Virus record (IMG/VR): IMGVR_UViG_3300043331_001321
Coordinates: 1 to 27,161 of that record
Origin: a virus
DNA length: 27,161 nt
Strand: one strand, 5' to 3'
The stretch's first letter is position 1; every line of letters starts with the position of its first letter. Shown here piece by piece: positions 7,316-24,037 of this stretch. The notes below the pieces were generated by a model. It was not told where the DNA came from, did not search any database, and saw only the letters and a program-made list of their open reading frames with translations. The translations under genes were made by a program, and so were the position numbers.

Positions 7316-7344
7316 AGATTATCTTTGCAGGCGGAATAAGTCAA
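7316..7344 (-). promoter_or_regulatory. Promoter B with operator-like element
   Basis: On the minus strand, TTGACT (7339-7344) overlaps the stop codon of the wHTH gene. A -10 candidate is GATAAT (7318-7323, spacer 15) or TAATCT (7316-7321, spacer 17). Between the two lies TTCCGCCTGCAA (7325-7336 on the minus strand), which matches in 11 of 12 positions the element in promoter A (19612-19623) and is close to the one at 23982-23993. The transcript would start almost at the ATG at 7309. Confidence 0.5.
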
Positions 7345-7676
7345 GAGGAAAAGAGCGACGGCTGAACGCCGGGTTGCGGTTTGATATACCATGTCACCGC
7401 GCGGCGCAGCGTAACCGAGCACTGGCGCTGTTGACCGTTCATTAGGTGCTGATCGGTTCGCAGGTCCGGTAGGCGCTTGTGCAGGACTTCATTGGGAATG
7501 CCGGTAATCGCCGCCAGCTCGCGCGAAGTCTTGCCGGGGTTTGCCGTGACGGCTTGAAGAACGCGGGTCTTTTGCCGGTCGCGCTCGCCAGACTCGGTTA
7601 ACTCTTCGGCGCTTTGGTGGGAGCTATCCAGGTCATCGCGTCGCGCGATGGGTTCATCGTTGGGGAAATGTGCCAT
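7341..7676 (-). CDS. Winged-helix DNA-binding protein, 111 aa
   Basis: Residues about 36-75 (KTRVLQAVTANPGKTSRELA then AITGIPNEVLHKRLPDL) form a typical winged-HTH: helix, turn, recognition helix, then a wing (RQCSVTLRRAVTWYI). The N-terminal 35 residues are acidic and probably disordered. The SD AAAGGCG precedes the ATG at 7676. Promoter B overlaps its end. It could be a transcription regulator or DNA-binding accessory factor; its target is unknown. Confidence 0.68.
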   Translation of the reverse strand: MAHFPNDEPIARRDDLDSSHQSAEELTESGERDRQKTRVLQAVTANPGKTSRELAAITGIPNEVLHKRLPDLRTDQHLMNGQQRQCSVTLRRAVTWYIKPQPGVQPSLFSS

Positions 7677-7809
7677 GCTTTTCGCCTTTCTATTTTGAGC
7701 TTGGACTGGGGTTCCTCGCAGCGTGGCCCCAATGGGCAGTTAAAGCTGCATATGCAGATTTACTTTGGCGATTATGGGGTCGAGCGCCGACCGACGCGCG
7801 ACGCCCTTT

Positions 7810-8163
7810 TTAACAATACAGCGATACTCTATAAGCGTTCACCGAACGGATAGTCTCTGTTCTCGTTATCTTGTGGTAGTAGAAATAATAAGCGTTGCAG
7901 CCATCCGTTCCCTCATACACTTTTGTAACCGCGCCGATGCGCGCCGATGCCGACCAGGCGCGCACGTCTGCATCTATGTCCGCCTGTGGTCTACGGTTGC
8001 GCATAAACTCTAAAAACAGTATTCGCTCATTTTCTTTAATGCGGTCTGCTTTGCGCCTCAACTCTTCGAGCTGCTGGAGCGAATTCGGTTCAGTCTCTAT
8101 TTCCGCCGCGCCGATTAGGCCCAACATGGCAAGCCACAACGCAAGCAGCATCGCCTCTTTCAT
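7810..8163 (-). CDS. Exported hypothetical protein, 117 aa
   Basis: Begins MKEAMLLALWLAMLGLIGAA, a short positive n-region and hydrophobic core resembling a signal peptide with cleavage near residue 20. It then has a long charged helix (LQQLEELRRKADRIKENERI) and a Tyr-rich C-terminus (CNAYYFYYHKITR). Start at ATG 8161-8163 by ATGA overlap; GTG 8169 is an alternative. A periplasmic or envelope role is plausible, possibly lysis-related given the neighbouring small membrane protein, but no spanin motif is clear. Confidence 0.6.
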   Translation of the reverse strand: MKEAMLLALWLAMLGLIGAAEIETEPNSLQQLEELRRKADRIKENERILFLEFMRNRRPQADIDADVRAWSASARIGAVTKVYEGTDGCNAYYFYYHKITRTETIRSVNAYRVSLYC

Positions 8164-8312
8164 CGGCACGCCTCAAGGGAGCGCTCTGCCAATGGTTTCG
8201 CGGCCCATCGCTCGCAGTCGCCGCTGTCGAACGTTCTCGATTCTAATGCTACAAGCGCTACGATCAATGCGCCGATTAGCAATGTTAACGATACCCAGCC
8301 TGTAATTGTCAT
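8160..8312 (-). CDS. Small membrane protein, 50 aa
   Basis: Start at ATG 8310-8312 with GGGAGG upstream and an ATGA overlap. One transmembrane helix (VSLTLLIGALIVALVAL, residues about 7-23) followed by a short soluble tail containing two Cys. It is coupled to the exported protein downstream. Its size and topology fit a holin-like or accessory membrane peptide, but nothing specific identifies it. Confidence 0.63.
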   Translation of the reverse strand: MTITGWVSLTLLIGALIVALVALESRTFDSGDCERWAAKPLAERSLEACR

Positions 8313-8521
8313 CTTACCTCCCACATCAAGCGAACGAACTCTTTCACTGCACTGTCGATGGAACCTCCTTTGCCGCACGGGACGCTTGGAACAATTTTCA
8401 GGGCAAGGTTCATCCGCCCTCGACCGAGCCACCAACCATTGTCATCTTCTTTTTTGAGCCAATATTCGTTTGGCAAATCCAAGCGAACGACCTCTCTCAC
8501 CAATTTGTCGTCCTGTGTCAT
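8309..8521 (-). CDS. Hypothetical protein, 70 aa
   Basis: Start at ATG 8519-8521 because of an excellent SD (GGAGGGAGG) and ATGA overlap. The product has a central WLKKEDDNGWWLGRGRMNLA stretch and ends with a helix (AVKEFVRLMWEV). Family unknown. Confidence 0.62.
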   Translation of the reverse strand: MTQDDKLVREVVRLDLPNEYWLKKEDDNGWWLGRGRMNLALKIVPSVPCGKGGSIDSAVKEFVRLMWEVR

Positions 8522-8748
8522 GATGTTGCCTCCCTCCATCGGTTGTGAATCATTTCTGGAAAACAATGCGTGTCTTCCATAACCAGTTCTTCGGTATCTT
8601 GCTTACACGCTTTATGGACTTTTACCTGACACCCATTCGGCAACTGAACGAGCGCGAAAATGCCACCATACTTAGCTAGCGGGCCATTGCATAGCCAGCA
8701 CATCGGCAAATGCGGGCCGAGTAATTTACTGCCAATACTGCGCCTCAT
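8518..8748 (-). CDS. Cys/His-rich mini-protein after TerL, 76 aa
   Basis: Starts at the base after the large terminase stop (TAAATG) with GGGAG upstream. It carries CWLCNGPL and, about 28 residues later, VKVHKACKQD, giving C-x2-C...H-x2-C, compatible with a treble-clef or zinc-knuckle fold. The position suggests co-translation with terminase. It might assist packaging or cleavage (HNH-like treble clefs occur beside terminases), but the HNH catalytic residues are not visible. Confidence 0.65.
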   Translation of the reverse strand: MRRSIGSKLLGPHLPMCWLCNGPLAKYGGIFALVQLPNGCQVKVHKACKQDTEELVMEDTHCFPEMIHNRWREATS

Positions 8749-10839
8749 TTATTTCTTCTCCCATGCTCTCACATCTCGCGGCAACCAGTCGTCGCATTTT
8801 GGGTCTTGGTTTCTGACAATCTGGTTATGCCATTGGAGGCCAAGACAACGCCCTTCGGCGCTGCCCTCTTCGGCATTAAAGTTATTACAGCCGCCACACG
8901 TTTCGGATACCCGTTGGCCGATATGGGGAATCCGCGCTTTTAGCTGGGCCATTGCCGGATTATCGGCCCGCATCTGTCTATCGGCATCGATAGCGCTGGC
9001 TTGATCGGCATCGATTTCGTGAGTAACCAAGCGAGTCGTTCCATAGGCGCGCGATATCGCCACATCAGCGCACATATTCGCATAGACAAAATGCGGGTCT
9101 TCTGAACCGATCTTTTCGACGCGATTGGTCCGGCGTTCTTCTTTCTCGTTTCTGCGCTCCGATATCAAAGCGACCTTCGTTAAATGCTTGGTAAACAGCG
9201 CCGCCAGATTATCGTTAATCCAACGGCCATTGACAAGGCGACGCTGAAGCAGCGGCTTCTTTAGCGGGTCTGGCATTTCCATATTGCCATCCTGAATCTT
9301 ACCCAGCGCATAGCTCATAAACTTGTATTGATCGACGCTGACAACAAACCGATTGCGCGCTTCATCGACCGTGCGCCGAACGGCATCGGGGTCGCTTGTC
9401 GTGCGGTCGCGCCATCTTAACATCTCACCGGCCATCGCCTGATTGCCATACTCGATAACAAACACGCGGCCCTCGAACTCTTTGGCGAACTGAAATGCCT
9501 CATTGAAGTTTGGCAGCGATTCGAGCGCCCCATACAAAATATTATACTCAGTCATGATTTCGTAGGCGCGCACAAAGGGGTTCGAGTCTTCAATCCATTC
9601 CAGGTGTAGTATCCGTTCCTTTCCGCCTGGAATGCGCCGCTTGACCACTATTACATTAAGATTGCCCATGTGGTCAAGCCCTAAAAAATTCTCCCCTTGC
9701 CGCTTGTTCTGAGCGCTCAAGCCCGGCCAATCGTAATGCGTCCGATAGCACCGTTTCAGTATTTCCAGGTTTATCGGAATTTCATTAGGGTTCGAATATG
9801 GCCGTCCCAGTTTGCGGTTATAAAAGTTTTGTTTGTCGTGGCTTTCGTCCCATGCCTTTAGCATCTCACTGGCCGTGACGCGCCGCGATGCTGTTTGCCC
9901 GAACGTAAAGCCGCGAATCTCGTGACCTGGATTGTGTGCGATATAGCGTCCGCGTTGCGGGTCAACGATTTCAGTATCGCAATGCGGACACCGATAGTAC
10001 ACGCGCCCATCGAGCCGCTTAGCAATACACTCCGGCCATTGCTCGGCCATTTCTATGCCATCGGAGCAACGGCAGTCGGAATGCCAGTGTTGCTGATCGG
10101 AGTTTTGAAACCATTCATCGATATCGGCCTCTGGCCACTTCGGCGTTGAGACCATCCCGATGCCCTTGATAAACGATGCTGATACACGTTCGCGAGTCTT
10201 CTCGATTTGCCCCCGCGTCATGCCCTGAACTTCATCGAACACCAGCACATCGAGCGGCATTGCCTCAGTTCTCATGGTGTCGCGCTGGCCTTGGCCTATG
10301 CCCATATTCATACCGGTGTAGAGAAACATGACGGTCGATGGTCCAAGCTTTCGAATAGACTTTGACCCGATATCTTGACGCCCGGCCCTATCTTCCATCA
10401 ACGCCAACAGGTCGGGGTTATGCTGCATCATTTTTTTGTAGCGAGTATCCGAGAAGGCATATGTCGTGGTTTCGTCTGGCAGGTAATAACCGACATTCAT
10501 TGGTCGGCGTAGCGGCAAGTAAATCCCGGCCCATAACAGGTAAATGATCGACCCGCCGCCCTGGGCGCTCTTCCGCACAACGCTCTCATGCCCATAGACC
10601 TGATCGTCACTCGCTGGCAGGTCGGGAAAGCTTTCGTAGATTGGCTTCAGGTAGGCGAAGTCGCGATAGTTGAAAGTCTCACGGTCTATCCATAGCCCTG
10701 AGCGTTCAGCCCACTGCCAGAATGGCAGCTCGCGCGCCAAGCGCTGCAATACCGGCACCGTCGAGCGCGCCGAGTATATTTGCGCTTCTTCTTGCGCGAC
10801 TTCCCACAACGCACGCGAGATAGCAACGCCGATATCCAT
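8749..10839 (-). CDS. Terminase large subunit, lambda GpA type
   Basis: 696 residues. This ATPase-nuclease motor cuts and packages DNA into the head. The N-terminal ATPase has a Walker A of GpA style (RKSAQGGGS, residues 89-97, comparable with the KSARVGYS region of lambda GpA) and Walker B DVLVFDEV (197-204). A Cys-rich insert follows (C256, C258, C284, C287, the last pair as CPHC). The nuclease domain begins near FLGLDHMGN (D389). Near the C-terminus is an extra Cys module, CGGC then C then C (about residues 645-680). It is slightly longer than lambda GpA. No strong SD precedes the ATG at 10839. No TerS is adjacent; a candidate lies at 13047-13625. Confidence 0.93.
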   Translation of the reverse strand: MDIGVAISRALWEVAQEEAQIYSARSTVPVLQRLARELPFWQWAERSGLWIDRETFNYRDFAYLKPIYESFPDLPASDDQVYGHESVVRKSAQGGGSIIYLLWAGIYLPLRRPMNVGYYLPDETTTYAFSDTRYKKMMQHNPDLLALMEDRAGRQDIGSKSIRKLGPSTVMFLYTGMNMGIGQGQRDTMRTEAMPLDVLVFDEVQGMTRGQIEKTRERVSASFIKGIGMVSTPKWPEADIDEWFQNSDQQHWHSDCRCSDGIEMAEQWPECIAKRLDGRVYYRCPHCDTEIVDPQRGRYIAHNPGHEIRGFTFGQTASRRVTASEMLKAWDESHDKQNFYNRKLGRPYSNPNEIPINLEILKRCYRTHYDWPGLSAQNKRQGENFLGLDHMGNLNVIVVKRRIPGGKERILHLEWIEDSNPFVRAYEIMTEYNILYGALESLPNFNEAFQFAKEFEGRVFVIEYGNQAMAGEMLRWRDRTTSDPDAVRRTVDEARNRFVVSVDQYKFMSYALGKIQDGNMEMPDPLKKPLLQRRLVNGRWINDNLAALFTKHLTKVALISERRNEKEERRTNRVEKIGSEDPHFVYANMCADVAISRAYGTTRLVTHEIDADQASAIDADRQMRADNPAMAQLKARIPHIGQRVSETCGGCNNFNAEEGSAEGRCLGLQWHNQIVRNQDPKCDDWLPRDVRAWEKK

Positions 10840-10845
10840 GCCGAA

Positions 10846-11148
10846 CTATGGCTCATTGGGCGCGAGCACGCGCTTGGCTTCATCGCCTTCATCAACGTCG
10901 GGCACTTTAATCCGTTCTGGATATCGCGCCTTATATCGTTCGACCCGTGCCGTCAGTAAATCAACCGACTCTAGTTGCCGTGGCCCAGCGCCAAGCTTGA
11001 CACATTCCCGCTTGTACGTATCGAGCACGGCCCTATTAAAAGCCGCGTCGCCAGCGAAGAAAAACACGCCGTCTTCGTCGGTCTTGACATTACCAGGCTC
11101 GCCGACGCGCGTTGCCACGATAACTCGCTTTCTATCAATTGACTCCAT
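10846..11148 (-). CDS. Hypothetical protein upstream of TerL, 100 aa
   Basis: Directly precedes the large terminase with a 6-base gap. The product is beta-rich at the N-terminus (RKRVIVATRVGEPG, FFFAGDAAF), then a helix with many Arg (LTARVERYKARYPERI) and an acidic end. The SD AAAGGCGG lies about 11 bases before the ATG, inside the upstream gene. It may assist packaging because of position; I recognise no family. Confidence 0.65.
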   Translation of the reverse strand: MESIDRKRVIVATRVGEPGNVKTDEDGVFFFAGDAAFNRAVLDTYKRECVKLGAGPRQLESVDLLTARVERYKARYPERIKVPDVDEGDEAKRVLAPNEP

Positions 11149-11151
11149 AAA

Positions 11152-11505
11152 TCAATACCGCCTTTCTTTTTCGTTTTTCACACCTATTGTTCGCCCATCG
11201 GCATACCGAAAGATAACAGACCGGCGCTTGAAAATCTCTTCGGCTTTTTCGGGATTAAGGGCAATTAACTCTTCGAGCAAATCAAAGAGATTGTTGTCCA
11301 ATTGCTCCTGGCGTTCCCATTCGCGCGCAATTCGCAACGTTTCAGCGTCGTATGAATACTTGCGTTCAACGGCCTTGATGCGTTCCTCTTGCTCCGGCGA
11401 CTGCGTAAGCACTAACTGACGTACCATGATGACCTGCGCTACGGCACTTGTCGTAATCATGCCACCGATTAGCCCGTTGATGGCGGACTTTATAACCCAG
11501 TTCAT
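11152..11505 (-). CDS. Membrane-anchored coiled-coil protein, 117 aa
   Basis: Start at ATG 11503-11505 with GAAGGAAAG upstream and an ATGA overlap with the Cys-rich microgene. The N-terminus is hydrophobic (AINGLIGGMITTSAVAQVIM), a probable single membrane segment with GG motifs. Residues 35-90 are charged heptad-like helix (ERIKAVERKYSYDAETLRIA onward). The C-terminal tail is basic. The topology resembles phage holin-like or i-spanin-like proteins, but no family match is clear. Confidence 0.6.
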   Translation of the reverse strand: MNWVIKSAINGLIGGMITTSAVAQVIMVRQLVLTQSPEQEERIKAVERKYSYDAETLRIAREWERQEQLDNNLFDLLEELIALNPEKAEEIFKRRSVIFRYADGRTIGVKNEKERRY

Positions 11506-11663
11506 CGCTTTCCTTCTTTCTTGACTCGACACGGTGCGCACGGTGCGCACGTAGCATGACACGCGCAATCTGGACTATCGGCGCAATCGGGATGGCCGAA
11601 GCATACGCGATGGCGAAAATTCTTCGACTTCGGCTTATGTCTACAGGAGCGCTTTGATCGCAT
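11502..11663 (-). CDS. Cys-rich microprotein, 53 aa, 8 Cys
   Basis: ATG at 11661-11663 to TGA 11502-11504, the latter overlapping the next start as ATGA. The product begins basic (MRSKRSCRHKPKSKNFRHR) and then has seven more Cys in a 28-residue stretch: VCFGHPDC, DCAC, HATC, APC, APC. The CAP repeat comes from two tandem copies of a 9-bp unit (CGGTGCGCA, 11532-11549, plus strand). It could bind metal or be disulphide-rich. The tight overlap and in-frame Cys pattern argue for a real gene, but SD support is weak. Confidence 0.5.
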   Translation of the reverse strand: MRSKRSCRHKPKSKNFRHRVCFGHPDCADSPDCACHATCAPCAPCRVKKEGKR

Positions 11664-11667
11664 TATT

Positions 11668-11904
11668 TTACGGGGTCTCGTCGATGGCCGCTAAGTCTGT
11701 AGCCGATGGCTTATCGCGCGTTGGCCCTAAATATATGCGCAATTCCAATGGTGGCGACGCGCATGGGCCACATATCAAATTTATCTGAGATTTGTCGATG
11801 AGGCTTTGGACAGCGATAAATACGAGAGCGCTCGCTTCCAACACAGTTTCTGGAATAAGTGAGACACAATCGCGGTCGCCACCGGTTATCACATGAACCT
11901 GCAT
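11668..11904 (-). CDS. Hypothetical protein, 78 aa
   Basis: Start at ATG 11902-11904, ten bases after AGGAG; the longer frame would run through the small membrane gene upstream. It begins MQVHVITGGDRDCVSLIPET, with a helix (ALVFIAVQSLIDK) and CGPC. Family unknown. The first strand-loop (VHVITGGDRD) faintly resembles nucleotide-binding beta-alpha starts, but is too short to claim. Confidence 0.55.
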   Translation of the reverse strand: MQVHVITGGDRDCVSLIPETVLEASALVFIAVQSLIDKSQINLICGPCASPPLELRIYLGPTRDKPSATDLAAIDETP

Positions 11905-11912
11905 ATACTGTT

Positions 11913-12038
11913 TTATCTCCTGGTGCGCTTGTAAATATCGAAGAGTTTCACAACCGCGCATAGCGCGACAAACAACACGCCGACGCCAATGGCTGGCAAA
12001 ATGATTTCCGTAACGAATCTCGCTATAGCGTTATCCAC
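11913..12038 (-). CDS. Small membrane protein, 41 aa, GTG start
   Basis: GTG at 12036-12038 to TAA 11913-11915. A single transmembrane helix (IILPAIGVGVLFVALCAVV, residues 12-30) is followed by a basic tail KLFDIYKRTRR, so the C-terminus should face the cytoplasm. The stop overlaps the SD of the next gene. There is no strong SD for the GTG; the frame is open back to the previous microgene stop. Its composition makes chance unlikely. Confidence 0.5.
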   Translation of the reverse strand: MDNAIARFVTEIILPAIGVGVLFVALCAVVKLFDIYKRTRR

Positions 12039-12065
12039 GGTTGCTTTCGCGTTCGCGCCCTTGAC

Positions 12066-12146
12066 TCATACAATTCCCAGCTCGACCATGACCCATACCA
12101 AACCGATGAGCGTGCCGATGCCGCCCAGTATGATAAAAATATTCAT
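12066..12146 (-). CDS. Membrane micropeptide, 26 aa
   Basis: ATG 12144-12146 overlaps the stop of the upstream membrane protein as ATGA. The product is essentially one hydrophobic helix: MNIFIILGGIGTLIGLVWVM followed by VELGIV. The Gly-spaced face (GGxG, LIG) suggests helix packing in the membrane. With the neighbours at 11913 and 12143 it forms a cluster of three tiny membrane proteins. Role unknown. Confidence 0.5.
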   Translation of the reverse strand: MNIFIILGGIGTLIGLVWVMVELGIV

Positions 12147-12385
12147 ACCCGTTCACACCTATGCGTCGAAGCTCTCGGCCAATTAAGATTGCCGCGATAC
12201 CACTCGCATTGTTCTTGTGTCCGAAACGGCCCCAACACTGCTGGCGCGACCTGGAATGCGGGCAACCCTCTGAAGGTAAAATACCAGCCGCCACCGCTGC
12301 CAGCAATCAACATCGCGCCTAAGAGTATCGCCACCGACAGAAGTATTGCGCACAGCCCAATTGTAGCTATCGCTCTGAACCTCAT
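12143..12385 (-). CDS. Membrane-anchored small protein, 80 aa
   Basis: N-terminal helix (ATIGLCAILLSVAILLGAML, residues about 6-25) then GSGGGWYFTFRGLPAFQ and a soluble domain with PFRTQEQCEWYRGN and a second Cys near the end. The two Cys about 19 residues apart may pair outside the cytoplasm. SD AAGGGGCGA precedes the ATG; ATGA overlaps at both ends. The fold type (TM followed by a 'GPF-T-EQCE' segment) is one I have seen in phage small proteins of unknown role. Confidence 0.65.
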   Translation of the reverse strand: MRFRAIATIGLCAILLSVAILLGAMLIAGSGGGWYFTFRGLPAFQVAPAVLGPFRTQEQCEWYRGNLNWPRASTHRCERV

Positions 12386-12570
12386 AGGTTTCGCCCCTTG
12401 CGCCGTTGCGGCCTGTCATTCTCGCTCGGAAGACGCCCTAGCAACCTATTCCGCGCATCATCGATAATACGCCGCAACGCCTTATTATCGCCGAATATGT
12501 ACCCCGCTATATATGCCCGATTGCAGTCGCGCCTGTATCGTTCAATGGCGAGATTGATCAATTGAGCCAT
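12382..12570 (-). CDS. Basic helical protein, 62 aa
   Basis: Arg-rich throughout (LINLAIERYRRDCNRAYIAG, LRRIIDDARNRLLGRL, ending RPQRRKGRNL). Probably helical and nucleic-acid-binding by charge, but no motif identifies it. The start overlaps the upstream zinc-ribbon gene by 13 bases; its stop makes ATGA with the next gene. Confidence 0.6.
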   Translation of the reverse strand: MAQLINLAIERYRRDCNRAYIAGYIFGDNKALRRIIDDARNRLLGRLPSENDRPQRRKGRNL

Positions 12571-12827
12571 GCGCCACCCGCATTTATAAGTCGCTCCAAC
12601 AGGGAATAAGAACGACCGCGAATTATAAATTCTCCCGGTATCACCAGCACCGGCTGCGCCATTTTTTCTTCATCGTTAGGTCCAGGTAACATCGCTGGGA
12701 TGACAACGCAATTTTCCAGCTCACATTTCCGGCACTTGAAATGCCATTGCCACGGCGCGTGATTTGGCGGTTGAAACATTCTGACGTTATTGGCCGAGCA
12801 ATGCGGGCATTTGAGCATTGTTGTCAT
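12558..12827 (-). CDS. Zinc-ribbon protein, 89 aa
   Basis: Two CxxC knuckles: CPHCSANN at residues 7-14 and CRKCELENC at about 32-40, spaced as in a classical zinc ribbon. The rest contains an acidic loop and a C-terminal helix. The ATG at 12827 overlaps the upstream stop as ATGA; a second ATG at 12818, better spaced from GGATG, is possible. Likely nucleic-acid or protein binding. Confidence 0.68.
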   Translation of the reverse strand: MTTMLKCPHCSANNVRMFQPPNHAPWQWHFKCRKCELENCVVIPAMLPGPNDEEKMAQPVLVIPGEFIIRGRSYSLLERLINAGGAWLN

Positions 12828-13069
12828 CCTTTTTTGCGTTCATCGTTGATCTTTGCTGAGCTGATTGGCAATCCCGCACGTTCCAGGTTCTCCATGATAG
12901 AGTCTTCGGTATCACCGGTTATGACAATCAACTCGCAGTCCTGCCAGCCCATATCTTTAAGCGCAGTATGAATAGGCTTACCTTCACCCATTCGTCGAAT
13001 ATTTTCCGCGCTTAGACCGATAAGCAACGTCTTCACACCAGCCCCGTTAGTGTACGTCATTTTCAGCAT
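12824..13069 (-). CDS. Conserved phage hypothetical protein, 81 aa
   Basis: Start at ATG 13067-13069, preceded by GGAGGGTTC. Product MLKMTYTNGAGVKTLLIGLS followed by AENIRRMGEGKPIHTAL and ELIVITGDTEDSIMENLE. The pattern GLS-x-ENIRRM-x-EGKPI ... ITGDTEDSI is one I associate with small phage proteins of unknown function that sit near structural and packaging genes. It overlaps the end of the TerS-like gene by 23 bases. Confidence 0.66.
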   Translation of the reverse strand: MLKMTYTNGAGVKTLLIGLSAENIRRMGEGKPIHTALKDMGWQDCELIVITGDTEDSIMENLERAGLPISSAKINDERKKG

Positions 13070-13625
13070 GAACCCTCCGGTCGTCGTTGGGTACAGGAAG
13101 TAAACCCGATGGCGGTTGCTGTTCCTGTATATTCGCATTTATACCCAAGATAACACCGAGCCTCTGAACTGCCGATAAGAATTGCTCGCGCGGTACGAAC
13201 TCGCGAAGTAGCTGCACTATGCCACGCCCGATGGCGATGACATGCGGATGATTCTTAATCTCGATTTCCAGCTTAGCGCCATACGACTCGCGTTTGTGCG
13301 ACCGCAACAAGAATTTGATCATCTCCGCATTCTTGTCGTTTATCGCAAGCGACACCGCGCCGATTTCAATGGCGTCGATGCTGGCGTTGATTATTTCATC
13401 GACCTTCGCGGCAAACGCCGCATCGTCTTGCCGCCAACGCCAGACCGTCGTGCGCTCGACTCGCGCGGCCCGCATGGCTTTAGCCTGGTCGAGAGTCTGC
13501 GACAGCTTCAGAAGATAGCGCGACTTCTTCTGAGCAACGCTAGGTAGCCTTAAGCCACGCCGCCCGCGATGCCTTACCCTTCGCCGCGTTGCGTTTGGTT
13601 CCCCTTGTTCCCGTGCTTCAGCCAT
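13047..13625 (-). CDS. Putative terminase small subunit (HTH protein)
   Basis: 192 residues. After a basic N-terminal tail (RRRVRHRGRRGLRLP) comes a helix-turn-helix: AKAMRAARVERTTVWRWRQD followed by DAAFAAKVDEIINASIDAIE, then a repetitive helical region and KFLLRSHKRESYG. This order (HTH with TTVWRWR, DAAFA, I-IGAVSLAI, LLRSHKRE-YG) matches phage small terminases that recognise DNA before handing it to TerL. It is about 2.2 kb upstream of TerL rather than adjacent, so the assignment is by domain, not by pairing. SD GGGGGAT. Confidence 0.72.
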   Translation of the reverse strand: MAEAREQGEPNATRRRVRHRGRRGLRLPSVAQKKSRYLLKLSQTLDQAKAMRAARVERTTVWRWRQDDAAFAAKVDEIINASIDAIEIGAVSLAINDKNAEMIKFLLRSHKRESYGAKLEIEIKNHPHVIAIGRGIVQLLREFVPREQFLSAVQRLGVILGINANIQEQQPPSGLLPVPNDDRRVHAENDVH

Positions 13626-13628
13626 TGA

Positions 13629-13841: not shown

Positions 13842-13848
13842 TAAAAAG

Positions 13849-14217: not shown

Positions 14218-14227
14218 CGCGCGCGCT

Positions 14228-16526: not shown

Positions 16527-16543
16527 TGTTCTCTCCAACGCTT

Positions 16544-16846: not shown

Positions 16847-16847
16847 C

Positions 16848-17350: not shown

Positions 17351-18103
17351 TCATAGCATCACGACCTTCTCTTTGCCGCCGCGTCGCTTGGCTACCAAGA
17401 ATAAACAGCTCTGGCGTCCTTTGACTCGCGGCCTGACACCAGCTTCAATTTCAGACTTAATTTCCGTGAGGCTCTCTTCTGAACGCCACTGCAACGCCCC
17501 GGCCATCGCCTTGAAGATATCCTCGGTCACTCTATCGTCTTGCTTGCACAGATTGACGATATCGTTGGCGAGGCGCGTTTTTAGCTTGATAATCGCTTCA
17601 TCGGCATGTGCATCTTTGAGCACCACTTCGCCCCAGCCATAGAACATGCCCCATACGAAAAATGGGATGCGCTTGTCGTTCTTGAGGCTATCTAGCAGCT
17701 CGCCATAAAACTGCTTAATCTGTTTTATTGGAGCGGTGAGCAAGGGCGCGAGCAGGTCATCGATATCGTGCTCGATCTGATCGATATCGTCTTTGTCGTG
17801 CGCCGTTGAATACACTGCCAGCCATTCTGTCCATCCCTCGACCATTTTCTTTACATTCATTGCTGGTTTCTTCTTTCCATCACGCTGCGGCCCTAGCGCC
17901 ACAGCATAATATAGCAATACCGCTACGTCGCGAAGCGATAGGCCCTGCTTGCCATGCTTACGACACAGCAGGAAGCCGCGCCCCATTAATCCAAGATCAC
18001 CAATACCGAGAACCTCGCTGCGTAAATCGCGTGATGTCACTTCCTGTTGTGTCTCATCAATCTTACAGACAAACGTTGCCTTCACGGCCTGGTCTATCGT
18101 CAT
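17351..18103 (-). CDS. Hypothetical protein, 250 aa
   Basis: Start at ATG 18101-18103 by ATGA overlap. The N-terminal region (residues 1-80) contains FVCKIDETQQEVTSRDLRSE and SLRDVAVLLYYAVALGP. The middle is acidic and helical (DKDDIDQIEHDIDDLLAPLL). The C-terminus is basic (RPRVKGRQSCLFLVAKRRGG). I do not recognise the family. It sits two genes downstream of the DUF5131 protein but does not look like its usual TcmP partner. Confidence 0.7.
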   Translation of the reverse strand: MTIDQAVKATFVCKIDETQQEVTSRDLRSEVLGIGDLGLMGRGFLLCRKHGKQGLSLRDVAVLLYYAVALGPQRDGKKKPAMNVKKMVEGWTEWLAVYSTAHDKDDIDQIEHDIDDLLAPLLTAPIKQIKQFYGELLDSLKNDKRIPFFVWGMFYGWGEVVLKDAHADEAIIKLKTRLANDIVNLCKQDDRVTEDIFKAMAGALQWRSEESLTEIKSEIEAGVRPRVKGRQSCLFLVAKRRGGKEKVVML

Positions 18104-18405
18104 AACGCCCACCATTGCTCATGGATGACCTCGTTTAATTCCGCGCGTCGAAACCTGATTTTCTGCTCCAAAATTGGCCAGTCTTGAATCGCCATATGAC
18201 GTTCGACGTAATTCCGGCTTTTAAGCAGTCGGCGTGCAATCATGATCTGGTCTTCAAGGGTAAATATTTCAGCGAGCAATTCCTTGGCCCGCTTCGGCAA
18301 ATATCCAAGCCAGCACGCGACCGTCACAAGCCATAGCCGCTTACGCCGGTCTGTAAAATTCGCGGATACGAAACTCTTTAGGCCATTCATGAATGCTTGC
18401 GCCAT
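18100..18405 (-). CDS. Hypothetical protein, 101 aa
   Basis: Helical and Arg/Leu-rich (KRLWLVTVACWLGYLPKRAK, LEDQIMIARRLLKSRNYVER, LEQKIRFRRAELNEVIHE). It overlaps the end of the DUF5131 gene by 65 bases, or 50 if the ATG at 18390 is used; neither start has a good SD. The pattern suggests a compact helical bundle. Function unknown. Confidence 0.58.
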   Translation of the reverse strand: MAQAFMNGLKSFVSANFTDRRKRLWLVTVACWLGYLPKRAKELLAEIFTLEDQIMIARRLLKSRNYVERHMAIQDWPILEQKIRFRRAELNEVIHEQWWAL

Positions 18406-19246
18406 GACGCCAATCCTGCAAGTCTAAAACGACTGCCCCATCCACCGGCAGCGCTCCGAGTTGTTTGACGAATACCGGCACACCTTTATCCTGGCAATCG
18501 TGAATAATTTGCAACGCATGATCCAAACGAAACGGGCGCACTTTATTTTGCGCCTGCTTGCTTTCGCCCTCGATAATAACCCAATCTAGTTTGCCGCCTT
18601 TGTATTCAAGTCGAAGGTCGGTGAATCGTGTCCCTGACAAATAATCACACTCGACTACTTTGTTTATGATTTGCAGGTCGCTCTGCGGTGCGGGCATATT
18701 GGGTACTTTTACGCGCCGAAGATTCACTTCGCCGAGCATTGGTCCAATCGACACACCGCGTCGCCACGCTGGAATAGCGAACAACTTTCGCAAATCGCGC
18801 TCCGCTTCATGTTGATTTACGATAGTAGCCATCATGACGACATTAGGATAGCCAGCACCCCAATCATCGGGCAGCATCCGTTCGACATTGCCGATTCGTT
18901 TGGTGAGAAGTAGCCAGTCTAGATGATCTTGGGTATCGCGGATTATTCTCCACATCAGCGCGCGCTTCTCATCGCCATTTGGCGCTTCGCTATCTGCCCA
19001 ATCTCCCATTGACATACAGAAGACTCGCTTTCGAGAACCGCCGCTAGCCGCGCGCGCCCATCTATAAGGCTCCGCAAAATGACTCCCAGGAAATTCCCGG
19101 TATACGCCCTTCCATGCATTGCCGAAACCGGTAAACTTTGCCCATTCGCGGGCATAGCAACTATCACAGCCGGGGGATACCTCCCGGCATCCCCACCAAA
19201 GGTTAAAAGTATGATCACACCAGGGAATAGCCGACTCTTTACCCAT
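18341..19246 (-). CDS. DUF5131 (phage Gp37/Gp68) three-Cys protein
   Basis: 301 residues. The N-terminus carries IPWCDHTFNLWWGCREVSPG then CDSCYA: a C-x6-C-x2-C-Y three-Cys cluster found in DUF5131/Gp37-Gp68 proteins, reminiscent of but not identical to the radical-SAM C-x3-C-x2-C site. Later family markers are present: RRGVSIGPMLGEV, a VIIEGESK segment and VPVFVKQLGALP. The family is common in phages and prophages, often next to a TcmP gene; the enzyme activity is not established. Start ATG 19246 is used because CGGAGA is well spaced from it; ATG 19252 is too close. Confidence 0.88.
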   Translation of the reverse strand: MGKESAIPWCDHTFNLWWGCREVSPGCDSCYAREWAKFTGFGNAWKGVYREFPGSHFAEPYRWARAASGGSRKRVFCMSMGDWADSEAPNGDEKRALMWRIIRDTQDHLDWLLLTKRIGNVERMLPDDWGAGYPNVVMMATIVNQHEAERDLRKLFAIPAWRRGVSIGPMLGEVNLRRVKVPNMPAPQSDLQIINKVVECDYLSGTRFTDLRLEYKGGKLDWVIIEGESKQAQNKVRPFRLDHALQIIHDCQDKGVPVFVKQLGALPVDGAVVLDLQDWRHGASIHEWPKEFRIREFYRPA

Positions 19247-19580
19247 TTGCATTCTCCGATAGCTCGTTTATTGCGCTTTGCGGCACCCTGTATCCAAGCC
19301 CCCGTAGTTCTTCGAGCCACGCCGCCGCTTCGCGGTAACTCAACCCGCTCCGCATCTCTCCGGCATATCGCCGCTGGTGAGGCAAGTAGGGCAGCTCTTG
19401 CCATTGCTTCCAGGCTTTCCGATACCACAGCCAGGCCAGCGCATCACCACACCACGGGATTTCGGGCGATGGCACAGGACACCATTGAGTCGCGACATGC
19501 ACGGTCACACCGCCACTCATATCGTCATAAGCGTACACATCGCAGCGAAATTGCATGCTCGAAAATCTACAATAGCTCAC
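19239..19580 (-). CDS. Conserved phage hypothetical protein, 113 aa
   Basis: Begins MSYCRFSSMQFRCDVYAYDD, a start I know from many small phage proteins of unknown function that then continue with a VTVHVA segment, as here. The Trp-rich middle (ALAWLWYRKAWKQWQELPYL) and a helix with SGLSYREAAAWLEELRGLGY follow. The start is GTG at 19578-19580, with GTGGGA about nine bases upstream. It is the first gene after promoter A, so its mRNA should begin near 19600. Confidence 0.78.
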   Translation of the reverse strand: MSYCRFSSMQFRCDVYAYDDMSGGVTVHVATQWCPVPSPEIPWCGDALAWLWYRKAWKQWQELPYLPHQRRYAGEMRSGLSYREAAAWLEELRGLGYRVPQSAINELSENANG

Positions 19581-19605
19581 GTTTCAAATCCCACGATCAA
19601 TTGCG

Positions 19606-19634
19606 TTTATATTCCGCCTGGAAAACAAAGTCAA
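19606..19634 (-). promoter_or_regulatory. Promoter A with embedded palindromic operator
   Basis: Minus-strand -35 TTGACT (19629-19634), 17-base spacer, -10 TATAAA (19606-19611); five of six matches at each box. The spacer holds TTCCGCCTGGAA (19612-19623, plus-strand reading), an inverted repeat TTCC-N4-GGAA. A protein bound there would block RNA polymerase. The -35 abuts the stop of the DnaC-like gene. It should drive the 19580-and-below gene series. Confidence 0.72.
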
Positions 19635-20318
19635 CTACTTTCTTTCAACCCGCCAGTCGCCCCCCTTAAGAGTTATAATTTCTCCCATCTCGACAAGTCT
19701 AGATGCGAGCCGATCATCGATTAGCTCCGCGACCTTTTCAAGAGTTAAATTGCTAGTTATTACAGTCTGACGCATATCGTTGTAGCGCCAGTCTAAGATC
19801 AAATACATCTGCTGCCGCGACCAGTCGGAAATTCGCTCAGCTCCTAAGTCATCGATTACTAAAAATGGCGTTGTGCCATAGTGGCGAATTGTCGCCCTCT
19901 CGTTCCCCTCGTCGATACTGGACTTTAAATCCAACAATAACCGTGCCGACGAAATAAACACGGGGATGCTCCGAATAGCGAAATGCTTCGAATAATACAA
20001 AAGCGCCAGCCCATAGGCCATGTGAGTTTTGCCAACGCCTGGAGGGCCGCTAATAAACGCGCTCTTGCCTCTAGATATCGCCTGGCGCGCTAAATCGACT
20101 TCCGCTTCATAGCCTTGGAAATTACTCAGAGACTTGCCGATAAAGCGAGCCGGGATACCTAGCCGGTCGTTGGCTACGCACGAGCGCCCGTTAACAATCT
20201 TTTCTTCAATCTTCTCTTCATCGACCACCGGCCTCGGTTTTACCAATGCGGACTTATCTCGAATCGCATCAACCAAATTTGTGATACTTGCCGGTGTGTG
20301 GTCTGACTTTGTTTCCAT
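19635..20318 (-). CDS. DnaC/IstB-like helicase loader (AAA+ ATPase)
   Basis: 227 residues. Walker A GPPGVGKT (91-98) and Walker B FLVIDDLG (152-159), with an Arg/sensor region near the end (VITSNLTLEKVAELIDDRLA then SRLVEMG). This is the layout of DnaC and of the ATPase beside phage initiators (the gene P role): it loads the host replicative helicase at the origin. The N-terminal ~60 residues are the likely helicase- or initiator-contacting part. ATG 20318 has AAAGG at good distance; GTG 20327 is an alternative. It overlaps the initiator gene by 50 bases. Confidence 0.9.
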   Translation of the reverse strand: METKSDHTPASITNLVDAIRDKSALVKPRPVVDEEKIEEKIVNGRSCVANDRLGIPARFIGKSLSNFQGYEAEVDLARQAISRGKSAFISGPPGVGKTHMAYGLALLYYSKHFAIRSIPVFISSARLLLDLKSSIDEGNERATIRHYGTTPFLVIDDLGAERISDWSRQQMYLILDWRYNDMRQTVITSNLTLEKVAELIDDRLASRLVEMGEIITLKGGDWRVERK

Positions 20319-21045
20319 CGATGCCACCTTTCTTTTTTCCCAGCCCGTTAATCCTGGTTATAAACACACCAAGGGTATGACCAGTCTTCTGAATGAAGTC
20401 GTCGTTTTGTAGAAAAAATTCATCGATCTTTGCTTTCACGACATCGATATCTCCGAACGTGGCCAATGACCGTTTAACAGCCATTGCGTCCTTACCGCCC
20501 GCGAAGTGATACTTCTCGTTGTGGACAATCAGATACTTCTCGGCCCAATAGTCTATCAAGAGTTTTATGCGCGGATCGGGTGCTGTCTTATTCTTATAAG
20601 ACAGCTTCTTATCGTATCGTATCGTATCGTTAAGAGAGGCCCTTTGCGCACTTTCGCGCTCTTCTGCGGCAATCTGCGGCAATTCGCGCTGTTGTGCGTC
20701 AGTATGCGGCAACACGATGCGCCGCTCCTTGGGAATGTAGCTCTGATAACGGTAGAATGATTCAGGGGGGAAGTAGATGCGGTCGGCGTGTTTAACTAAA
20801 AGCCTGGTATCTTCAGCGCTTAGGACTGCCAGGGCGTCGGCGACATTTTCTGGAGTCTTGTCGCGGCGACCTGGAATAACCAGATACATAAGCTCTTCGG
20901 GGTCTGCTGGTAGTGAACAGTCATCATCTGCATGCGCAATCATCCATGTGTAGAGAAGCACCGGAAAGTCGCCATGAGTCATCCCAACACGGTTCAAAAC
21001 CTTGTCGTGGGATATCTTCGTGCTCAAATCCCGTCGTCTAGCCAT
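20269..21045 (-). CDS. Phage replication initiator (gene O / DnaT-like role)
   Basis: 258 residues. The N-terminal ~100 residues (MARRRDLSTKISHDKVLNRV, FPVLLYTWMIAHADDD, PGRRDKTPENVADALAVLSA) match the winged-helix start of phage replication organisers. The linker from about residue 112 to 150 is built from sequence repeats (LPHTDAQQRE, LPQIAAEERE) and a pentanucleotide run coding NDTIRYDKK. The C-terminal domain has LLIDYWAEKYLIVHNEKYHF and HTLGVFITRINGLG. It immediately precedes the DnaC-like loader. It probably binds the repeat array within its own gene. ATG 21045 is chosen for its spacing from GGAG; 21048 is nearly equivalent. Confidence 0.82.
   Translation of the reverse strand: MARRRDLSTKISHDKVLNRVGMTHGDFPVLLYTWMIAHADDDCSLPADPEELMYLVIPGRRDKTPENVADALAVLSAEDTRLLVKHADRIYFPPESFYRYQSYIPKERRIVLPHTDAQQRELPQIAAEERESAQRASLNDTIRYDKKLSYKNKTAPDPRIKLLIDYWAEKYLIVHNEKYHFAGGKDAMAVKRSLATFGDIDVVKAKIDEFFLQNDDFIQKTGHTLGVFITRINGLGKKKGGIDGNKVRPHTGKYHKFG
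20582..20605. repeat. Perfect 10-bp hairpin in initiator gene
   Basis: GCTGTCTTAT (20582-20591) and its exact reverse complement ATAAGACAGC (20596-20605) flank a 4-base loop. It lies between the pentanucleotide tract and the C-terminal domain coding region and codes for a KLSYKNKTA linker. It may be an extruded structure at the origin, or a translational pause in the mRNA. Not followed by a U-tract, so not a terminator. Confidence 0.8.
20611..20630. repeat. Pentanucleotide tandem repeat (ATCGT)x4
   Basis: Four exact ATCGT copies in the initiator linker. Five is not a multiple of three, so gain or loss of one unit would shift the reading frame of the initiator. Runs of this kind (coding DTIRYD-type peptides) occur in the linker of phage replication organisers. 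It may form an easily melted part of the origin; it is also a potential slippage site. Confidence 0.85.
20645..20714. repeat. Iteron-like array, probable replication origin
   Basis: Seven 10-base units in exact register from 20645: TGCGCACTTT, CGCGCTCTTC, TGCGGCAATC, TGCGGCAATT, CGCGCTGTTG, TGCGTCAGTA, TGCGGCAACA (plus strand), consensus YGCGNYNNTN. At a larger scale 20653-20682 and 20683-20712 are a 30-bp tandem repeat identical at 25 of 30 positions. The array lies inside the initiator gene ahead of the pentamer run and hairpin, the arrangement known from lambda ori within gene O. The origin call is an inference. Confidence 0.65.
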
Positions 21046-21198
21046 CATCGCTCCACAAAGGGCGAACGCGGATTGCCGCACTATGCCGCAAAATAGCGCA
21101 CCCTGATAAATCAACTATTTACAAACATTCGTCGAAACACACGTCCCATCGGTGTGACGATAATGGTTAACAAATGGGACAGTAGAGGCTAAATTTTT
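21046..21198 (-). promoter_or_regulatory. Leader/control region of the initiator gene
   Basis: Non-coding. Contains two TGCCGCA sites 10 bases apart (21074-21080 and 21084-21090), the same 7-mer as in the in-gene array but in opposite orientation; a 7-bp inverted repeat GTCCCAT...ATGGGAC (21143-21149 / 21174-21180) with a 24-base spacer; and, on the minus strand, an AT-rich TTGTAAATAGTTGATTTATC. The GGAG for the initiator is at its lower end. No -35/-10 pair is convincing. The TGCCGCA pair could let the initiator repress itself. Confidence 0.5.
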
Positions 21199-21558
21199 TT
21201 AGGCCCTGTTTCGACCACGGGACGCTGGGAACAGTTGAATCTGGCGCTCTTCGCTGGTCATCTGACGCTCGCTGATAATCTCGCCCGTGTCGAGCCGCTT
21301 TGTTACCATCATCCAGCGCTCTTCATCGCGGGACTCTTCTATCTCGACATCTCTCATTTCAGCGCGCTCAGCGACCACTTTTGCCAATTTGGAAATCTTT
21401 AATTTTTGCGCTTTGATGTCACCGGTAAGCGACGCGATGGTACTCGATTTTTGCGTTTCGAGATTTTCCCGCGTTTGCGTAGCATTGGCCAAGTCGGCAG
21501 CGCGCTGCGCGACTTCGGCATCGGTAAGCCTTACTGGCAATTCTCTAGTCTCTGCCAT
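21199..21558 (-). CDS. Conserved phage coiled-coil protein, 119 aa
   Basis: Starts MAETRELPVRLTDAEVAQRA, continues as a coiled coil (ENLETQKSSTIASLTGDIKA, KLKISKLAKVVAERAEMRDV) and ends with ERWMMVTKRLDTGEIISERQ followed by MTSEERQIQLF. This pattern (PVRLTD-E ... LDTGE--ER-MT-EERQ--LF) is recurrent in phages beside recombination or replication genes, with no assigned role. SD AAGGAGGG. Confidence 0.76.
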   Translation of the reverse strand: MAETRELPVRLTDAEVAQRAADLANATQTRENLETQKSSTIASLTGDIKAQKLKISKLAKVVAERAEMRDVEIEESRDEERWMMVTKRLDTGEIISERQMTSEERQIQLFPASRGRNRA

Positions 21559-21571
21559 AACAACCCTCCTT

Positions 21572-21937
21572 TTATAATTCCGATCTTCCAGTTCTTAGAT
21601 AGTCACGTTGGATGACGCCGCTTTTCCGGTTGCGTTCCTTGTCTATCACGTTTTTGGCTCGTTTGACCAGCTCTTCAAAATCAGTAATCGCCGCTGCAAC
21701 ATCTCCATTGTCGTCGGCGATTTTGTCGAGCACATTATAGGCATGAATCACGGCGGTCTTATGATCTTCTGCTATCCCTTCGAGCTTAGCTTTCATGGAT
21801 TCTAAAACCGCTTCCCATTCGTCATTAGGCTCGACCGCAACGTCGATCTGAAATGAATACGAGAATGTCGCTGGCGCTCGATGGTGCGGGTCTTCGACAA
21901 CGCGCCCGGCGTTGATAGTTAGTTTTTCGACTTTCAT
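21572..21937 (-). CDS. Hypothetical protein, 121 aa
   Basis: Start at ATG 21937, four bases after the stop of the ATPase C-terminal ORF. N-terminal beta-rich segment (MKVEKLTINAGRVVEDPHHR, ATFSYSFQIDVAVEPNDEW), then long helices (VLESMKAKLEGIAEDHKTAV, AITDFEELVKRAKNVIDKER). No family recognised; the position between the ATPase and the 119-residue gene suggests the same operon. Confidence 0.65.
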   Translation of the reverse strand: MKVEKLTINAGRVVEDPHHRAPATFSYSFQIDVAVEPNDEWEAVLESMKAKLEGIAEDHKTAVIHAYNVLDKIADDNGDVAAAITDFEELVKRAKNVIDKERNRKSGVIQRDYLRTGRSEL

Positions 21938-21938
21938 G

Positions 21939-23519
21939 TCACCACGCACACAGCTCCGAGCTGGCCCTAATTGAACCACGTTCCGGCGCAGTCAGCAGCT
22001 TGCGCGCCATCAACCGGGAAATATATTCATCGCGGCTTGACCGCTTGTATGTCAAGTTTAAATCATCTCGCTTCACTGAGCCTGGATATACATCTATAGC
22101 AGCATCGAGAATTGCTCGCTCGCCTGGAGATAATCGCTGCCGCCAGTATGCTAACAAGTTCGCGCCGGTAGGCAATGGTGCGAAATTGCTCCCCAGCGTG
22201 CGCATGCCAAGCTGCGTCGCCTTAAGGGTCTCGCCAGATTGTTCTATTAGCCCCTTGGACTTCAGTCGGCTAATAAACTCATCGCGGCTGGAGCGTTTGT
22301 ATCCCGTCAGCACTGATAGCTGATCGCGCGTTACGCCATTGTATTGCGCGGCGGCAACTAACACTTTCATCTCGCCGCCTTGCTTTAGGGCATCAGGCTT
22401 AGCCGTGCCAGTATCTGATTTTTTAATCGGCCTGGCTGAGTCGAGGCCCGTACAGCCGCGCACAAACTCGGTTTGCGGCTTGCGCGAGCCGGAGTCAATA
22501 CCAAGCACGACTGGAGCTGATAGCGCGACTTCGCTCACCCTCAAGTGCGATGCCTCAGTTAGCGATTCTGCCAAGCGCGAGCATGTCTGGCGCAATGTTT
22601 CATACGATGCGCGAACGTCGGTAAGTTGTTTTTGCAACGCTTCAATATGCGGCACATGGACGGTATCGCGGGCCTGCTGTTCCTGGGTTCTACCCCGTAG
22701 GTATTCTTCCGCGACCTGTTTGCGAAGCGCGGCGATTTGTTTTTTCAGCTCGTTTGGGTCATCGGCCCTTGCCTTCTCGATTGTCGCCGCCATGCGCTCG
22801 CGGTACTTCTCAAGGTCCGGCTTTGTTGGCCGTCCTGGCGCTTTAAGAGACTTGCCCGGTCTTGGAGTAGCTGAGCTATCGAACGTGTCGGCTAATTTGA
22901 TCTGAACTTCACCCTCGAAATCTAACCATTCCGGCGACACGACCAAAGCCCGACCACGGGGCAATTTTCTTAGTCGCGCTACCAGTTCCTTGTGGCGCTC
23001 TTTTGGAATATGCTCGCCAAACCAATCGACGATGGACGCAATGGAATTTGGCCCAGCGGTTTGAAAGGCAACCATGCATTCGGCCAGCTCCGACACGGAT
23101 TTATTCATACGCGCTGAGCGCTGAGTAATAAGCGTAATGCCCATCCCGTAATTCCGCCCCCATTCCACAGCCTCTTCGATTGCCCCAATGCAATCGGCGA
23201 TATCGAGCGACCCCTTCATTGCGATCTGAGGCACAAATCTGCCAGCTTCGTCGATTATCAGCATCAAGGGATGGCGCTTCTCGCCTTGCCGTTGAAAGAG
23301 CCGCCTCACAAAATCGCGCATAAACCGGATGCGCTCGCCGTTCGACCAGCTCTCGCCGTTCGCGCGCCTCATTACGATGATCGTGCTGCATTGCTCATCC
23401 GCGACAAAATCGGCGACGACATGCCCAGCCCCAGCCTCAATTGGGATATCGCCGTGTGTACCACCAAGGATGACGCAATTGACCCCTGGTTGATTGCCGG
23501 GCCGTGCTGAAGACCCCAC
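21939..23519 (-). CDS. HerA/FtsK-like ATPase, C-terminal part (frameshifted)
   Basis: Open frame of 526 codons that begins inside the ATPase domain: GVNCVILGGTHGDIPIEAG, then the Walker B LMLIIDEAGRFVPQ (about residue 86-99) and GMGITLITQRSARMNKSVSE, typical of HerA-type hexameric pumps. After it come a coiled coil (residues about 230-310) and two winged-helix units with almost identical recognition segments, YKRSSRDEFISRLKSKGLIE and YKRSSRDEYISRLMARKLL. Its Walker A is in the -1-shifted frame at 23372-23710. It may be one 590-residue protein interrupted by a one-base deletion near 23510, or made by frameshifting. HerA ATPases drive DNA translocation or act with nucleases in processing and defence. 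Confidence 0.78.
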   Translation of the reverse strand: MGSSARPGNQPGVNCVILGGTHGDIPIEAGAGHVVADFVADEQCSTIIVMRRANGESWSNGERIRFMRDFVRRLFQRQGEKRHPLMLIIDEAGRFVPQIAMKGSLDIADCIGAIEEAVEWGRNYGMGITLITQRSARMNKSVSELAECMVAFQTAGPNSIASIVDWFGEHIPKERHKELVARLRKLPRGRALVVSPEWLDFEGEVQIKLADTFDSSATPRPGKSLKAPGRPTKPDLEKYRERMAATIEKARADDPNELKKQIAALRKQVAEEYLRGRTQEQQARDTVHVPHIEALQKQLTDVRASYETLRQTCSRLAESLTEASHLRVSEVALSAPVVLGIDSGSRKPQTEFVRGCTGLDSARPIKKSDTGTAKPDALKQGGEMKVLVAAAQYNGVTRDQLSVLTGYKRSSRDEFISRLKSKGLIEQSGETLKATQLGMRTLGSNFAPLPTGANLLAYWRQRLSPGERAILDAAIDVYPGSVKRDDLNLTYKRSSRDEYISRLMARKLLTAPERGSIRASSELCAW

Positions 23520-23710
23520 CAGACATCAAGCGGGTCTGTTACGCAAAACCGCAAGTGGTTTTTGGACAACTCTTCGGCAAAGGCCCGCCCGAAATTGGTC
23601 TTGCCCTTGCCCCTACCGCCATAAACGACCAGCGTGCTCGTTACCGCATCGGTTCCAAAGCAAAACGGCTTCGCGCTCGTGCTATCTCCTATTGTGCCAA
23701 TGGTTATCAC
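23372..23710 (-). CDS. HerA/FtsK-like ATPase, N-terminal part (frameshifted)
   Basis: Open frame of 112 codons with a Walker A (VVYGGRGKGKTNFGRAFAEE) and the strand-loop CVTDPLDVWWGL that leads into HerA-family ATPases. After WWGL the frame loses similarity; the expected continuation (SARPGNQPGVNCVILGG) is in the -1 frame. So residues up to about 67 belong to the ATPase and the last 45 are probably out of frame. GTG 23708-23710 overlaps the XRE stop as GTGA. See the partner ORF at 21939-23519. Confidence 0.75.
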   Translation of the reverse strand: MITIGTIGDSTSAKPFCFGTDAVTSTLVVYGGRGKGKTNFGRAFAEELSKNHLRFCVTDPLDVWWGLQHGPAINQGSIASSLVVHTAISQLRLGLGMSSPILSRMSNAARSS

Positions 23711-23934
23711 TTCACGCCTTCGCTTTCTGACGCTAGCTGACAGACGCGCTCAAACGGCTTGCGCGTTAGCTTAGCGATGCGCCGAAGAGTTTGAAAATCT
23801 TTGATGCCACGCTCGCCACGGTAGATATTGCACAAAAAGGGCTGCGAGATGCCGATTAGCTTGGCAAACTCGACTTGCCTTAAGTTGCGCTTGTCTTGTT
23901 CCTGCTTAAGCAGATTTGCGAGTGGAGTATCCAT
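23707..23934 (-). CDS. XRE-family (Cro/CI-type) DNA-binding regulator, 75 aa
   Basis: A single HTH domain: NLRQVEFAKLIGISQPFLCN then IYRGERGIKDFQTLRRIA, with the usual Q-x-EFA-x-x-IG-x-x-Q recognition layout. Short, with no C-terminal protease or dimerisation domain, so more like Cro or a compact repressor than CI. It is divergent from the recombination operon and first in the minus-strand series, the expected place for a switch regulator. Candidate targets are the operator-like elements at 23982-23993, 19612-19623 and 7325-7336. Confidence 0.86.
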   Translation of the reverse strand: MDTPLANLLKQEQDKRNLRQVEFAKLIGISQPFLCNIYRGERGIKDFQTLRRIAKLTRKPFERVCQLASESEGVK

Positions 23935-24037
23935 GAGTCTACCTATTTAGCATACCGATGCGCATGACGCAATTAAAAACTTTGCGCCTGGAATAAAACC
24001 CTTGACAGGATTATGCTTCTTTGGTATTTGGCAACGC
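23935..24037. promoter_or_regulatory. Divergent promoter/operator region
   Basis: Plus-strand promoter: perfect -35 TTGACA (24002-24007), 17-base spacer, TATTTG (24025-24030, weak -10). It would start near 24037, right at the ATG, so possibly leaderless. TTGCGCCTGGAA (23982-23993) lies eight bases upstream of the -35 and is the third copy of the shared element. An 8-bp palindrome ATGCGCAT lies near 23958-23965. The minus-strand promoter for the XRE gene is not obvious; TATGCT or TAAATA just above its SD could serve as a -10. Confidence 0.62.

Follow-up and report, generated by a model that had tools for sequence, protein, structure and literature searches.

Does a 12-base-pair (bp) element that recurs at three promoter-like sequences of an uncultured phage serve as the operator of one of the phage's own regulators? 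The question was raised by an earlier note on the virus record IMGVR_UViG_3300043331_001321, which had tentatively assigned the element either to a small XRE-type regulator or to a winged-helix protein, and we have analysed the record over its whole length of 27,161 bases (the window). The element is longer than the 12-mer, its full form occurs at three places only, and each of these lies within or close beside a promoter-like sequence. We rate at about an even chance the reading in which it is the operator of an XRE-family repressor regulon with dispersed operators; the operator role, the binding of the XRE protein, repression and the responding units are all what we infer from the sequence.

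Results

When the window was scanned for the 12-mer with up to two mismatches, exactly four places were found: 7325-7336 (minus strand, one mismatch), 9621-9632 (plus strand, exact), 19612-19623 (plus strand, exact) and 23982-23993 (plus strand, one mismatch). These are the copies that the earlier note had listed. Its further observations, that the three promoter copies lie less than ten bases from a TTGACT or TTGACA box and that a fourth, perfect copy lies inside the codons of TerL, also hold, the gaps to the box being 2 nucleotides (nt) at promoter B, 5 nt at promoter A and 8 nt at promoter C. The sites and promoters are as follows.

19612-19623, plus strand: site A, TTCCGCCTGGAA, a perfect TTCC-N4-GGAA dyad; extended form TATTCC-GCCT-GGAAAA at 19610-19625
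7325-7336, minus strand: site B, TTCCGCCTGCAA; extended form TATTCC-GCCT-GCAAAG at 7338-7323
23982-23993, plus strand: site C, TTGCGCCTGGAA; extended form on the minus strand, TATTCC-AGGC-GCAAAG, 23995-23980, in the divergent gap between the XRE and exonuclease genes
9621-9632, plus strand: TerL copy of the 12-mer, within codons for I-P-G-G-K
19606-19634, minus strand: promoter A, TTGACT (19634-19629), 17-nt spacer with site A, TATAAA (19611-19606)
7318-7344, minus strand: promoter B, TTGACT (7344-7339), 15-nt spacer with site B, GATAAT (7323-7318)
24002-24030, plus strand: promoter C, TTGACA-17-TATTTG, with TG before the -10 box

In its longer form the element reads TATTCC-N4-G(C/G)AAA(A/G), a pseudo-palindrome with the core TTCC-N4-GGAA, both halves of which are intact at A; one half is altered at B and one at C. 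A motif scan of the whole window, of the kind that the earlier note had proposed, found TATTCCNNNNGSAAAR exactly at only three places in 27,161 bp, which are A, B and C; at one mismatch, 1842-1857 and the TerL copy are added. An earlier, looser pattern, TTTKCNNNNGGAATA, had fitted B and C without a mismatch and A with one. A two-way model trained on all three sites scored A at 28.0, B at 24.5 and C at 24.1, the next-best places being the TerL copy (15.8) and position 26023 (14.1, in the phrog_3657 gene), and upon leaving one site out, every site came third in the window, right behind its two training sites. With a one-way model and 3000 shuffled regions per site, the score of the left-out site was reached 9 times for A, 0 times for B and 41 times for C; the sites ranked third, third and fourth in the window, respectively, with the direction as in the two-way model. 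No match was found in Rfam, and no paper was found under the literal spellings TTCCNNNNGGAA, TTCC-N4-GGAA and TTCCN4GGAA, a literal match being unable to show that such an operator is unpublished.

The three promoter regions might resemble one another by chance, having been selected from many compared stretches. The earlier note had judged the recurrence unlikely by chance, and for a plain 12-mer repeat this does not stand: with up to two mismatches allowed, dinucleotide shuffles had 2.73 matches on average, and 32 of 100 reached four, while in the real window 773 of the 27,150 12-mer positions have at least three places within one mismatch and 134 have at least four. A match common to three intergenic gaps (test set of 1,847 bp in 18 gaps, with genes curated by hand) appeared in 11 of 200 dinucleotide shuffles, and the motif was chosen after the data had been seen. 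The element stands out from chance because of its tie to TTGACW boxes, not by recurrence alone. Of the 25 TTGACA/TTGACT boxes in the window, five are intergenic. When 30 bases on each side of the boxes were compared, 13 of 2000 shuffles gave a three-box match with the flanks of all 25 boxes, and 0 of 5000 did so with those of the five intergenic boxes (1/300 and 0/300 in a first, smaller run); as these shuffles preserve base composition only and the question was framed after the motif was known, the values should be taken as moderate support. The likeness also continues past the 12-mer into the same flanks, and we consider chance a rather unlikely explanation of the three promoter sites.

The TerL copy fits chance, with no function needed. 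An equal or better site was present in 58 of 500 shuffled windows with the two-way model and in 460 of 500 with the one-way model, and of 2000 synonymous shuffles of TerL, 300 had one anywhere and 90 had one close to the same position; the copy was rejected as an intragenic operator. Because three homologues read L-P-D-G-R where the window has I-P-G-G-K (a fourth, Touem01, was left out of the comparison), the peptide at this copy is under partial constraint.

Promoter A lies just past the stop of a DnaC-like gene, and the element fills the spacer between its -35 and -10 boxes. With the predicted start taken, by our convention, as seven bases past the -10 box, transcription from A would begin at ~19599, ahead of a GTG at 19580 that starts a 113-amino-acid (aa) gene; a DUF5131 gene follows, and beyond it on this side are the small-terminase-like and TerL genes. 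Promoter B overlaps the stop of the winged-helix gene, again with the element between the -35 and -10 boxes. Its predicted start is ~7311, the ATG of a small Cys-rich open reading frame (ORF) is at 7309, and beyond that ORF the promoter heads toward a PolB-exonuclease-like gene and the portal gene. Site C is placed differently, upstream of its promoter and ending 8 nt short of the TTGACA box, in close proximity with no overlap. The predicted start of promoter C is ~24037, and the exonuclease ATG is at 24038:

24038-24949, plus strand: PD-(D/E)XK exonuclease, first gene of the recombination unit

The unit continues with a phrog_3657 protein of unknown function and a Holliday junction resolvase. 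Since the exonuclease and the phrog_3657 protein are adjacent at a second locus (L003) too, the arrangement suggests an exonuclease-annealing pair. Because the predicted starts at B and C fall at most 2 nt from an ATG (7309 and 24038), their mRNAs are possibly leaderless. On the minus strand at C, toward the XRE gene, there are three -10-like hexamers, TTTAAT (23977-23972), TATGCT (23954-23949) and TAGACT (23941-23936), and one weak -35/-10 match, TTGCCA-16-AATCCT, with a score of 8.0 of 12.

All three sites stand beside TTGACW boxes, as they might if the shared bases were part of the promoter, for example a phage-specific signature for a dedicated polymerase factor, and not an operator; promoter A and 2711-2725 also have the 15-mer AAAGTAGTTGACTTT in common. 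A promoter signature would, however, be expected at a fixed position, whereas the element lies in the spacer at A and B, where it has opposite orientations, and upstream of the box at C. We regard this explanation as very improbable.

The 15-mer AAAGTAGTTGACTTT is identical at 2711-2725 and 19627-19641 (minus strand; dyad AAAGT-N5-ACTTT), at two gene ends, and the pair has 9 bases of flank identity past the box, an extent reached in 24 of 5000 shuffles. This second dyad was rejected as an XRE operator, since the XRE gap has no copy of it with two or fewer mismatches. The DUF5131 (phrog_2045) gene near promoter A spans 18341-19252, and a DUF4326 domain is also found among the scanned ORFs. The small Cys-rich ORF directly behind promoter B (7115-7309) has a likely membrane stretch and matched nothing in PHROG or NCBIfam at E 0.1.

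Two proteins of the window were considered as binders, and they are the only ones with helix-turn-helix families among the 50 window ORFs scanned against Pfam.

23707-23934, minus strand: 75-aa XRE-type helix-turn-helix protein (HTH_3), the best candidate binder
7341-7676, minus strand: 111-aa winged-helix protein (HTH_24, phrog_1123), the alternative binder

The XRE protein matches HTH_3 with 25.4 bits against a Pfam cut-off of 23, and it matches PHROG transcription-regulation families that include phage repressor families. Its best NCBIfam lead, couple_hipB, is below the cut-off, and its sequence match to C.BclI is weak (E 0.3). A single-sequence structure model of the protein (pLDDT 77, pTM 0.46) matched no PDB entry at E<=0.001; its top PDB rows, mostly helix-turn-helix antitoxins and repressors at E ~1, were given no weight, and neither was a model of the winged-helix protein (pLDDT 55).

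The two candidates differ in their own upstream regions. A model trained on A and B scored site C, which lies in the divergent gap between the XRE and exonuclease genes, at 19.5, and 1 of 20,000 shuffles of this gap scored as high, whereas the best score in the gap upstream of the winged-helix gene (7670-7815) was 0.2, with no copy of the element. Small phage repressors often autoregulate. Because the element is present in the XRE protein's own gap and not in that of the winged-helix protein, and because of this habit of phage repressors, the XRE protein is most likely, of the two, to be the putative binder. The part of the earlier proposal that has held up is thus an operator-like element common to three promoters; of the two regulators that it offered, the winged-helix protein has become the less likely (0.2 in its own gap against 19.5 in the XRE/exonuclease gap).

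A similar promoter layout is found elsewhere. An exact scan of IMG/VR for TTGACW-N5-TTCC-N4-GGAATATAA gave seven matches on five contigs, all with the core TTCC-AAGT-GGAA. One of these contigs, L019, has a stretch that matches Streptococcus suis phages; on this contig a 74-aa gene has one copy upstream and the other overlapping its 3' end, and the product of the gene matches phrog_876, transcriptional repressor (E 2e-13). Comparison of the window proteins with L019 gave nothing significant (best E 0.014), and the shared layout looks like convergence, not kinship. Other phages, then, also have a TTCC-N4-GGAA dyad in a promoter spacer beside a repressor gene, although there the repressor family differs. 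At L019:2954-3459 and L023:5133-5628, two near-identical promoters flank the 74-aa phrog_876 gene, with TTTCCAAGTGGAATATAAT in and after the spacer; these are likely to be an autoregulated operator pair.

The element could also be a real operator with another binder, be it the 111-aa winged-helix protein, a regulator encoded off the contig or a host regulator. The winged-helix protein matches HTH_24 above the cut-off and its stop codon overlaps promoter B, the completeness of the contig is unstated, and in the unrelated Streptococcus suis-type phages a promoter with this layout is found beside a small gene from another repressor family (phrog_876). The gap upstream of the winged-helix gene, on the other hand, is without the element. 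We take a different binder to be possible, though on the unlikely side.

Related promoters were sought in several collections. The phage collection held no near DNA match to 18300-27161, the sole stretch compared, and single-protein scans of IMG/VR viral contigs with the XRE, winged-helix, DnaC-like, TerL and phrog_3657 proteins gave no relative. The exonuclease alone found 6 loci in viral contigs and a four-row alignment found 10, all 23-35% identical; in genome contigs there were none for TerL and one distant exonuclease locus. ORFs were listed for four of the exonuclease-relative loci (L003, L004, L010 and L012). A tblastn search across loci L003-L018 gave no XRE or winged-helix relative, so that no promoter comparison was possible there. 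TerL relatives have ~30% identity and come from phages of ~90 kb. For the XRE protein, tblastn against phages and plasmids at loose E-values gave weak matches only, which were judged too distant to serve as operator comparators.

Two further features of the window were recorded. A P-loop (GGRGKGKT) ATPase-like gene, in which we assume a HerA/FtsK-like resemblance, is seemingly split over two overlapping minus-strand frames, 23372-23710 and 21939-23519, probably through a frameshift, a sequencing error or a programmed shift. At 2581-2631, a terminator-like inverted repeat (2600-2631, minus strand) is directly followed by a TTGACA-17-AATATT promoter-like site, after which come a small acidic ORF and then the portal gene; this is a possible unit boundary.

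Discussion

In the circuit that we favour, the 75-aa XRE protein that the phage itself encodes would bind, as a dimer, to TATTCC-N4-GSAAAR, a site with the core TTCC-N4-GGAA. At A and B the bound protein would cover the -35/-10 spacer and obstruct RNA polymerase, and this occlusion would silence two minus-strand units, the DUF5131/terminase part behind A and the portal part behind B. At C, the protein bound in the XRE/exonuclease gap would regulate its own gene and affect the divergent recombination unit. The mechanism would be ordinary promoter occlusion with autoregulation, a well-known kind of circuit and the usual way in which phages coordinate sets of genes.

Several points weigh against this circuit. 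The consensus TATTCCNNNNGSAAAR was derived from the same three sites that it recovers. Beyond the core, B and C are poor palindromes and the symmetry is good only at A, with 8 of 12 symmetric positions at A, 4 of 12 at B and 3 of 12 at C, where ~3 is the random level. The one-way leave-one-out result is weaker for A (9/3000) and for C (41/3000, rank 4). A scan of the minus strand at C for -35 and -10 boxes showed no clear XRE promoter, and the collections searched yielded no orthologous promoter. The contig, finally, is of unstated completeness, and other regulators may lie outside it.

Site C is ~50 bp upstream of the predicted exonuclease start, and the XRE protein might accordingly be a repressor at A and B, where the spacer is covered, and an activator or switch at C, possibly with leaderless mRNAs at B and C. 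We think this version improbable; it would make a compact switch in which the recombination unit is traded against the packaging and portal units. If repression by the XRE protein through the element is the correct reading, an operator sequence open to direct test is available for an uncultured phage with no near match to its early region in the phage collection, and the small XRE protein is likely to be linked to three transcription units, a gain that is mainly one of annotation.

How does the proposed regulon compare with known systems? Sites spread through a phage genome recall the stoperators of L5-type mycobacteriophages, which PMC9283540 describes as repressor sites throughout the genome; those are more than 20 asymmetric 13-mers, oriented with transcription and present also in non-promoter gaps, whereas the window has three sites of mixed orientation. 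The HipB operator consensus, given in PMC3376134 as TATCC-N8-GGATA, has a half-site, TATCC, that resembles TATTCC, but the spacing here is N4 (TATTCC-N4-GSAAAR), not N8, and no hipA-like gene is present among the scanned ORFs. Among the C proteins of restriction-modification systems, C.Esp1396I is, according to PMC3758141, a small helix-turn-helix homodimer with three non-identical pseudo-symmetric operators. The window likewise has a small helix-turn-helix protein and three non-identical pseudo-symmetric sites, homodimer binding being putative; C-boxes, however, have a GAC(T)/(A)GTC pseudo-dyad with a 4-base TATA spacer, in contrast to TTCC-N4-GGAA at A and its altered half at B and C. As far as can be tested on such data, the features by which L5 stoperators, HipB operators and C-boxes are defined thus appear to be absent here.

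Nearer parallels are found among phage repressors. P1 C1, according to PMC8546580, has 22 operators with a 17-bp consensus and inhibits its own promoters; it is likewise a single phage repressor with operators scattered over the genome, although its 22 sites are asymmetric, 17 bp long and of another consensus, whereas the window has three sites in its 27 kb and their core is symmetric. The CI/Cro operators of phi11, as described in PMC3991615, are 15-bp sites between divergent genes and near promoters, from which the repressor displaces RNA polymerase. Site C is similar in lying in a divergent gap near a promoter, but phi11 has three operators in one cI-cro gap, whereas the window has a single site in the XRE gap, the other two lying ~4 kb and ~17 kb from it, and the scanned ORFs include no cI partner. 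Features of an XRE/Cro-type repressor are nevertheless found together: an XRE domain, a candidate operator in the regulator's divergent gap, and promoter overlap at A and B. By analogy, the known systems that would work alike are P1 C1, with its scattered operators, and phages such as phi11, with their repressor/operator gaps.

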